Assembly (NCBI GenBank): GCA_003702545.1
Contig: REGK01000008.1
Coordinates: 1 to 32,259, forward strand
DNA: 32,259 bases
Reading direction: 5' to 3'
Source: Candidatus Nitrosopumilus sp.
GTDB lineage: Archaea > Thermoproteota > Nitrososphaeria > Nitrososphaerales > Nitrosopumilaceae
The translations under genes were made by a program, and so were the position numbers. A model generated the notes under the pieces. That model was not told the origin of the DNA. It saw only the letters and a program-made list of their open reading frames with translations, and did not search any database. Shown here piece by piece: positions 23,239 through 29,921 of the stretch. Each line of letters begins with the position of its first letter. Position 1 is the first letter of the stretch.

Positions 23239-24303
23239 ATGACAAAAAATCAAGATCGCATGAAATCACACACAATGGAATTACCTAGACAGATTGTTGT
23301 GGGTGAGAAGAACATAAATGAATTTGGAGAATTTTTGCGTAATTTAACCAAACCAAAAAAAGTTTCTCTTATTTCAGGAATTAATGTAAAAAAAGTTCTT
23401 AGACAAAGAATTGAAAAATCATTGAAAACAAAAAGAATCAAGTTTGTATGGCATACATCAAAAGATAATCAAATTAGCACACTAAATAGAATTGAAAAAG
23501 AAGTAAAAAAAGATCGCAGTGATATGATTGCAGGTATTGGAGGTGGACGTTCTGTGGATACTGCAAAATTAATTTCTTTTAATTTAGATATTCCATTTGT
23601 CAGTGTGCCAACAGCTGCATCACATGATGGAGTATCAAGTCCATTTGTTTCAGTTAAAAGTGACAAACCACATTCTATTGTTGCAACTGCTCCATTAGGA
23701 GTATTTGTGGACATTGACATTATCAAAAAAGCCCCATCAAGATTACTTGCTAGTGGTTGTGGGGACTTGATTGCAAATATCATTGCAGTAAAGGATTGGC
23801 AATTAGGTCATCAAAAAACTGGCGAGTATTATGGAACTTACTCAGCAGAATTAGCTATGATGAGTGCTATGATGGTACTTGATAATTCAAGAAAATATGC
23901 AAAAAATGGATTAGATGCAAGAGTGATTGTTGAAGCTTTGATTAGTGCTGGAGTTGCCTCATGTATTGCTGGAAGTAGCAGACCATGTTCAGGTGCAGAA
24001 CATCTATTTTCACATGCCCTAGATAAAATTGCACCAGGAAAGGGACTACATGGAGAAAAATGTGGGATAGGTTCGATTATGATTGCAAAACTACAAGGGC
24101 AAGATTGGAAAAAAATTGTTAAAACACTAAAAGATGTTGGAGCGCCAACTACTGCAAAACAAATTGGTTTAACTGAAGAACAAATTATAGATGCCTTAGT
24201 TATTGCACAAGATTTGAGACCGGAAAGATATACAATTCTAAAAGAGGTAGATATGACAAGAAGAAAGGCAAAAAGTCTTGCAAAGAGTACTAAAGTGATT
24301 TAA
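23239..24303 (+). CDS. egsA: Glycerol-1-phosphate dehydrogenase
   Basis: This enzyme reduces dihydroxyacetone phosphate to sn-glycerol-1-phosphate with NAD(P)H. The product is the stereospecific backbone of archaeal membrane lipids. The 354-residue protein has the nucleotide loop 'AGIGGGRSVDTAK' and 'VPTAASHDGVSSPFVSV'. The zinc-ligand segments 'SGCGDLIANI', 'SGAEHLFSHAL' and 'GKGLHGEKCGIG' are also present, matching the family. The ATG at 23239 is used; the conserved body begins near 'MELPRQIVVGE' (residue 13), so a slightly later start is possible. It converges with the FKBP gene and shares a divergent promoter with psmB. Confidence 0.95.
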   Translation: MTKNQDRMKSHTMELPRQIVVGEKNINEFGEFLRNLTKPKKVSLISGINVKKVLRQRIEKSLKTKRIKFVWHTSKDNQISTLNRIEKEVKKDRSDMIAGIGGGRSVDTAKLISFNLDIPFVSVPTAASHDGVSSPFVSVKSDKPHSIVATAPLGVFVDIDIIKKAPSRLLASGCGDLIANIIAVKDWQLGHQKTGEYYGTYSAELAMMSAMMVLDNSRKYAKNGLDARVIVEALISAGVASCIAGSSRPCSGAEHLFSHALDKIAPGKGLHGEKCGIGSIMIAKLQGQDWKKIVKTLKDVGAPTTAKQIGLTEEQIIDALVIAQDLRPERYTILKEVDMTRRKAKSLAKSTKVI

Positions 24304-29079: not shown

Positions 29080-29790
29080 TTGGAAGATAATTTTACTGAA
29101 GAAGAAAAAAAAGGATTCTACAAGGCAATTTATTCAAGAAGGGATGTAAGGTCTCATTTTACATCAAGGCCTATTGAAGATGAGGCTCTCTCAAAAATTC
29201 TTCATGCCGCACACCATGCACCATCAGTAGGATTCTCACAGCCATGGAATTTCATTCTGATAAAAGATATTCAAACAAAAAAGAGGATTAAAGCATCTTT
29301 TGAAGAAGAAAAGAATCGTTCATCTCAATTGGTAGAAGAGCCAAAGAGATCAAAGTATCTTTCATTCAAACTGGAAGGGATTTTAGAGTCTCCAGTGAAT
29401 TTATGCGTAACATATGATCCATCAAAATTTGGCCCATTTGTGATAGGCAGATCAAGCATTCCTGAAGCAGGGTTGTATAGTGTATGTTGTGCAATTCAAA
29501 ATTTATGGTTAGCAGCTAGAACAGAAGGAATTGGTCTTGGTTGGGTAAGCATTCTATCAAATGAAACACTAAAAGAAAATTTAGAATTGCCTGAACATGT
29601 TGTTCCTGTAGCGTATTTGTGTTTAGGATACGTAGATGACTTTGCAGAGAAACCAGATCTTGAAACTGCTGGTTGGTTACCAAGACTTGATCTAAAAGAT
29701 GTAGTATACTTTGAAAAATGGAATAATCAACAAAATGAAAGTTGGGCAAGTATTCAAAAAATGATCAAAGAAAATCTTGACTACGCTTAA
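29080..29790 (+). CDS. bluB: 5,6-dimethylbenzimidazole synthase (BluB)
   Basis: BluB uses oxygen to break down reduced FMN into 5,6-dimethylbenzimidazole, the lower ligand of cobalamin. The 236-residue nitroreductase-fold protein has the BluB-specific segments. These are 'SRRDVRSHF' with the catalytic aspartate D22, 'AAHHAPSVGFSQPWNFI', 'CVTYDPSKFGPFVIGRSSIP' and 'IQNLWLAARTEGIGLGWVSI' with the active-site serine. These distinguish it from ordinary nitroreductases. The TTG start is the only possible one after an in-frame stop at 29077-29079. It lies between two tRNA genes. Confidence 0.92.
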   Translation: MEDNFTEEEKKGFYKAIYSRRDVRSHFTSRPIEDEALSKILHAAHHAPSVGFSQPWNFILIKDIQTKKRIKASFEEEKNRSSQLVEEPKRSKYLSFKLEGILESPVNLCVTYDPSKFGPFVIGRSSIPEAGLYSVCCAIQNLWLAARTEGIGLGWVSILSNETLKENLELPEHVVPVAYLCLGYVDDFAEKPDLETAGWLPRLDLKDVVYFEKWNNQQNESWASIQKMIKENLDYA

Positions 29791-29814
29791 ATAATTAAAA
29801 ATGTTTTTTCTGCT

Positions 29815-29907
29815 GGGCTTGTGGCGCAGAGTCAATTTGACGCGAAACATGGATAGCGTGGTAGCCTCCTAAGTTACAGGTCGAGGGATCGAAGCCCTCC
29901 AAGCCCG
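29815..29907 (+). tRNA. tRNA-Arg (anticodon CCT) with an insertion in the D-loop
   Basis: The acceptor GGGCTTG/CAAGCCC, D-stem GCGC/GCGT, anticodon stem GTAGC/GTTAC with loop CTCCTAA (anticodon CCT, codon AGG), variable AGGTC and T-stem GAGGG/CCCTC all pair; G73 ends the gene and CCA is not encoded. Without the D-loop insertion the length is a normal 75 bases. The D-loop holds 28 bases instead of about 10, best explained by an 18-base intron. The T-loop reads ATCGAAG, with A54 and G60 in place of the usual U54 and pyrimidine 60. A T-run follows. Confidence 0.85.
29831..29848 (+). other. Candidate 18-base tRNA intron in the D-loop
   Basis: Removing these 18 bases gives a standard D-loop (AGAATGGATA). 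By hand a bulge-helix-bulge can be drawn. Bulge GAG (29829-29831) is followed by helix TCAA against TGGA (29832-29835 with 29850-29853, one A-G mismatch), then bulge ACA (29847-29849). An inner helix TTTG/CGAA closes on ACG, and the D-stem plus A28-U54-like pair (29828 with 29854) form the outer helix. Shifting by one base (29830-29847) leaves the more familiar AGCATGGATA loop, so the exact ends are uncertain. Confidence 0.6.
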
Positions 29908-29921
29908 TTTTGTTTTTTGTT
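29908..29921 (+). terminator. T-rich tract after tRNA-Arg
   Basis: Immediately after G73 comes a run of T residues interrupted by single G residues. This is the type of U-tract that terminates archaeal RNA polymerase after tRNA genes. No hairpin is needed or seen. Confidence 0.5.

Follow-up and report, generated by a model that had tools for sequence, protein, structure and literature searches.

A probable non-canonical intron in the D-loop of the tRNA-Arg(CCT) gene of a Candidatus Nitrosopumilus genome

The window analyzed here, a stretch of 32,259 nucleotides from a Candidatus Nitrosopumilus sp. contig (REGK01000008.1), carries on its plus strand a tRNA-Arg(CCT) gene between positions 29815 and 29907, whose 93 nt would be reduced to 75 by splicing and which does not encode the CCA end. 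As the original prediction held, every arm is present and only the D-loop is out of the ordinary: reading of the sequence gives an acceptor stem GGGCTTG/CAAGCCC with G73, a D-stem GCGC/GCGT, an anticodon arm GTAGC-CTCCTAA-GTTAC and a T-arm GAGGG-ATCGAAG-CCCTC, and the D-loop of the unspliced gene extends over 28 nt (29828–29855). The anticodon CCT (29868–29870, plus strand), which reads AGG, was assigned from the sequence and from the ARAGORN call on the spliced form. ARAGORN finds no match in the unspliced gene and calls a tRNA-Arg(cct) after 18 nt are deleted, in agreement with the claim that their removal restores a normal 75-base tRNA. Similarly, the Rfam tRNA model gives a partial match of 24.4 bits on the unspliced gene, below the gathering score, and between 55 and 69 bits on intron-less orthologues. 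A TATA-box-like element (TTAAATAAT, 29787–29795, plus strand) is centered about 24 nt upstream of the gene and a T-rich tract, its probable terminator, lies directly 3′ of it (29908–29918, plus strand), which suggests that the tRNA is its own transcription unit. The GCTTAAAT of the element is kept in all the same-genus loci, even in those with divergent flanks (L048, L052). The likely TATA element overlaps the stop codon of an upstream nitroreductase-like ORF (29080–29790). A second, intact tRNA-Arg(CCT), a possibility raised in the original prediction, was not found in the genome by Rfam, ARAGORN or exon-2 pattern searches of the assembly, which is 93.6% complete.

Because two registers, one base apart, both give an acceptable tRNA, the boundaries of the insert had to be drawn from other evidence. 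We relied on intron-less orthologues (L053, L054, L056, L126, L130, and L134). Those from other families (L053, L054, and L056) read GCGCAG-CATGGATA or end in CATGGACA, and the intron-less genes of equal length within the same family (f1) carry CA (L134), TA (L126 and L127) or CT (L130). Their junctions therefore place the intron, AGTCAATTTGACGCGAAA (18 nt, plus strand), at 29830–29847, that is, at tRNA position 15/16, with the arrangement GCGCAG/AGTCAATTTGACGCGAAA/CATGGATA. Splicing at these points would leave a 10-nt D-loop, AGCATGGATA, which is exactly that of the intron-less orthologues; exon 2 would start with C16 A17 U G18 G19 A20 U A21 (29848–29855, plus strand), again identical to the intron-less D-loop. 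In canonical introns, at position 37/38, each 3-nt bulge is cut between its second and third base. The alternative, a real intron at 29831–29848 that is cut one base downstream and replaces C16 with A16, yields a product that ARAGORN accepts equally well, but only in the 29830–29847 register does each cut follow the second base of a 3-nt bulge (AG/A and AA/C), intron-less relatives have C16 or U16, and a pyrimidine is kept at position 16 in 72 of the 73 distinct family sequences. We thus regard the downstream register as quite unlikely.

The proposed comparison of the D-loop among related genomes revealed the insert at the identical site, as well as intron-less alleles with an ordinary D-loop. 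Within the genus, 21 of the 24 sampled genomes have an orthologue and all 21 carry the insert; of the three genomes where it is missing, two have a completeness of 73% or less and the third one of 85%. Exact matches to the intron-region pattern in named records belong to Nitrosopumilus, Nitrosotenuis, Nitrosarchaeum, and Nitrosotalea, and f1 is evidently the Nitrosopumilaceae. A 24-nt exon-2 pattern located the gene, usually once per genome, in 221 of 250 genomes of the family; among the 131 of high quality, 128 have it. Such retention bears on the idea that the gene, which standard scanners miss, is a degenerating pseudogene in which the insertion is incidental, a reading that we find hardly credible given that every arm is intact, the copy is the only one, the promoter-like element is conserved, and the insert is structurally constrained. 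An insert of 17–22 nt occupies the identical site in about 98 of the family loci read, with 22 genera searched; among the roughly 100 loci read in the family, four lack it (two genomes of genus g37, one of g28, and one of g30). The order includes at least three further families in which this site is interrupted. Particularly, 23 loci of family f8 have inserts of 15–35 nt, and families f10 and f12 have an insert at the same site as well, in f10 also within arginine tRNAs with a CTTCTAA loop (TCT). No insert was seen at the site in the loci read from families f2, f14, f15, and f17, nor in the six loci read from genus g51 of f8, where the D-stem is GCTC/GAGC. In these six (L189–L194) the self-complementary GCGC of the D-stem has given way to GCTC/GAGC, as if a constraint had lapsed with the intron.

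Precise intron-less alleles thus occur in several genera, and this patchy distribution fits an old intron that would have been lost repeatedly; repeated gain at one site could also produce it. The D-stem strand, GCGC, is self-complementary, and exon and intron thus share a near-direct repeat (GCGCAG...GCGCAR); deletion between its two copies would produce exactly the intron-less gene, offering a simple route to precise losses.

Pairing was scored on 50 distinct family sequences for a precursor structure made up of a central helix, between exon nt 10–13 and the intron, and a 4-bp intron hairpin. The exon strand of the central helix is the 5′ D-stem strand (GCGC, nt 10–13, 29824–29827, plus strand), which would pair with 29842–29844 in the precursor and with the 3′ D-stem strand (GCGT, 29856–29859, plus strand) in the mature tRNA. 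Because both pairings use this one strand they are mutually exclusive, and the 3′ strand could pair with exon 1 only once the central helix opens. In the scored precursor structure 90.5% of cells are paired, and in the mature D-stem 100%. Changes on both sides were observed in five of the eight pairs. Cells of this kind number 22, compared with an expectation of 4.2, and none of 500 shuffles, which do not take out the relatedness of the sequences, attained that count; sliding the helix partners destroyed the pairing. The intron hairpin (GTCA-ATT-TGAC, 29831–29841, plus strand) covaries as GTC/GAC, GCC/GGC, ATC/GAT, and GTT/AAC, pair types that are spread over different genera, and the hairpins of f8 average 5.5 contiguous bp, compared with 0.64 after shuffling. 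The columns of the central helix vary little and the exon-intron covariation rests on few changes, such as the compensatory GCGT with ACGC in L044 and a wobble, GTGC, in L123–L125. On the intron side of this helix (29842–29845, plus strand), GCG forms three Watson-Crick pairs with exon nt 11–13 in this genome and the fourth pair is G.A; in many relatives the latter is G-C or G-U, and 32 of the 73 distinct family sequences have a standard pair there. To judge from the identical site across many genera and the covarying intron helices, the insert is far beyond chance.

The 5′ splice site, AG/A, sits in a 3-nt bulge between the exon-intron helix and the GTCA/TGAC hairpin, conserved and covarying in the family. 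At the 3′ site, AA/C, we found no conserved outer helix in the family sequences, where the 9x16 pair does not covary. The motif is therefore a relaxed rather than a strict bulge-helix-bulge (BHB), or a bulge-helix-loop. The original prediction had drawn a BHB with one mismatch at 29831/29848; the boundaries have to be moved one base upstream. We rejected an outer helix through nt 8–9 and 16–17, which covariation does not support, and a strict (symmetric) BHB, as the 3′ site lacks a 3-nt bulge closed by a conserved outer helix. The minimum-free-energy fold of the whole precursor contains a different D-loop hairpin. A local fold of 32 nt has the 3-nt bulge and the GTCA hairpin, and is cleaner in an A9/GCGC relative.

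A conserved hairpin could also belong to an insert that is retained, in which case the D-arm of the mature tRNA would be enlarged by an additional hairpin. We consider this very unlikely, as intron-less orthologues of several families show an ordinary 10-nt D-loop and exactly the predicted junction, the length (15–35 nt) and sequence of the insert are free to vary outside the helices, the strand complementary to the exon is preserved, down to the compensatory change of L044, and the genome encodes the splicing enzymes.

As for these enzymes, the genome encodes two PF01974 proteins. One, of 178 aa (L061:1246-1782), can be aligned over its full length with 3p1z, the endonuclease of Aeropyrum pernix; the alignment takes in the catalytic histidine of GPGIDHAPF, where 3ajv has an alanine, and places K-P-K opposite A. 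pernix K44-P45-R46 (numbering inferred from the alignment). Published work describes a loop lysine, with a proline and a basic residue after it, as important to relaxed recognition (PMC12397907). The other protein, of 199 aa (L062:715-1314, minus strand), does not have the catalytic histidine. As expected, we have a predicted catalytic alpha subunit with the crenarchaeal-loop lysine signature and a putative, degenerate structural beta subunit. An RtcB ligase gene is also present (E = 8.6e-179). The genome hence appears to encode the type of endonuclease that can cleave relaxed motifs. The original prediction had argued that the intron would need a splicing endonuclease of relaxed specificity; the lenient type is indeed encoded, and it is no extra requirement, as the endonuclease of Thaumarchaeota has been described as a lenient alpha2beta2 type (PMC4090602).

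Because of the fixed site, the covarying hairpin, the exon-intron helix, the intron-less alleles, the sole copy, and the right endonuclease, we favor an archaeal splicing-endonuclease intron: the gene is, very probably, a functional single-copy tRNA-Arg(CCT) with an 18-nt, protein-spliced intron at position 15/16. Judged on sequence, it is a real and functional-looking non-canonical archaeal tRNA intron that would be removed as follows. In the precursor, the 5′ D-stem strand GCGC would pair with GCG(A) near the 3′ end of the intron and the rest of the intron would fold as the GTCA/TGAC hairpin, resulting in a motif with a 3-nt 5′ bulge (AG/A), a helix of 3–4 bp, a 3′ site AA/C, and no conserved outer helix. 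The alpha2beta2 endonuclease would cleave both sites and RtcB would ligate the exons, after which the freed D-stem strand could pair with GCGT to give the normal 10-nt D-loop. During these steps the intron would sequester the 5′ D-stem strand and hold G15, which we take to be the archaeosine site, in the 5′ bulge; therefore, the D-arm might fold and be modified normally only after splicing. That the intron is kept for this reason, as a gate on D-arm formation that makes splicing a maturation checkpoint for AGG decoding, seems to us improbable.

Other tRNAs of this genome are interrupted too. At L069 (G000:C5:23700-24500, minus strand, about 24030–24115 of the contig) there is a probable tRNA-Glu(TTC) with a T-loop insert of ~14 nt (TTCAAA-ATCAATCGATGAAA-AT), which ARAGORN misses and Rfam scores at 17 bits. 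At L028 (G000:C72:19272-19366), a tRNA-Val(CAC) has an insert of ~18 nt, GAGAATAATTCTCCGCAA, between the anticodon arm and the T-arm, which ARAGORN reads as a long variable arm. Both are likely non-canonical introns, and, as apparent companions in the same genome, we count them in favor of splicing of the tRNA-Arg(CCT). Arginine tRNAs of relatives add further cases. In one relative (L147, G021:C73:2200-2600), a second arginine tRNA, with loop CTCCGGA (CCG), is interrupted at the same point of the D-loop by an intron-like insert. In f10 (L151, L153–L159, and L161–L170) the arginine tRNAs with an insert at this site mostly have the CTTCTAA loop (TCT); many of them are interrupted again in the variable region and some also near 37/38, making them multi-intron tRNAs.

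These results have two practical sides. A tRNA gene that has an interruption at the same site throughout a family can escape general scanners although it is the only one for its anticodon, and reported absences of archaeal tRNAs therefore need an intron-aware check. Moreover, natural intron-less alleles together with a freely varying hairpin provide a clean comparative system for studying endonuclease specificity and intron loss.

Finally, we compared the intron with those already known. It shares with the canonical 37/38 intron the pairing of exon 1 with the 3′ part of the intron, the intron hairpin, and the cut geometry, but it lies in the D-loop instead of the anticodon loop, it is missing the outer helix, and its exon strand belongs to a stem of the mature tRNA. 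The original prediction had called an intron this short, and in the D-loop, unusual. However, archaeal tRNA introns range from 11 to 129 nt with medians mostly of 12–25 (PMC4090602), which makes 18 nt typical, and D-arm introns have been documented in archaea (PMC3293823; PMC12397907); the tRNA-Thr(GGU) introns among those at non-canonical places are located at 24/25 and 45/46. It was right in stating that non-canonical tRNA introns are known in thaumarchaea: the tRNAscan-SE 2.0 survey reports 107 of them in Thaumarchaeota and a dedicated BHB covariance model (PMC8450103), and ours agrees with them in phylum-level group, splice-motif class, and cause of the scanner misses. In view of the known lengths, the D-arm precedents, and these 107 introns, the tRNA-Arg(CCT) intron belongs to a known kind. 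We did not find it listed at 15/16 in the literature searched, supplementary tables aside, and GtRNAdb may already hold a species-level entry. The non-canonical introns of Crenarchaeota/Thermoproteales, at 3/4, 20/21, 22/23, 25/26 etc., are likewise short, with BHB or relaxed-BHB motifs outside 37/38 and an alpha2beta2 endonuclease; 15/16 is absent from the positions named there, in a list that ends in "etc." (PMC4090602), and the central helix built from the 5′ D-stem strand sets the tRNA-Arg(CCT) intron apart from them. Its length and D-loop position are unexceptional for archaea, and what makes it somewhat unusual is the site, 15/16, the use of a D-stem strand as central helix, and its age.
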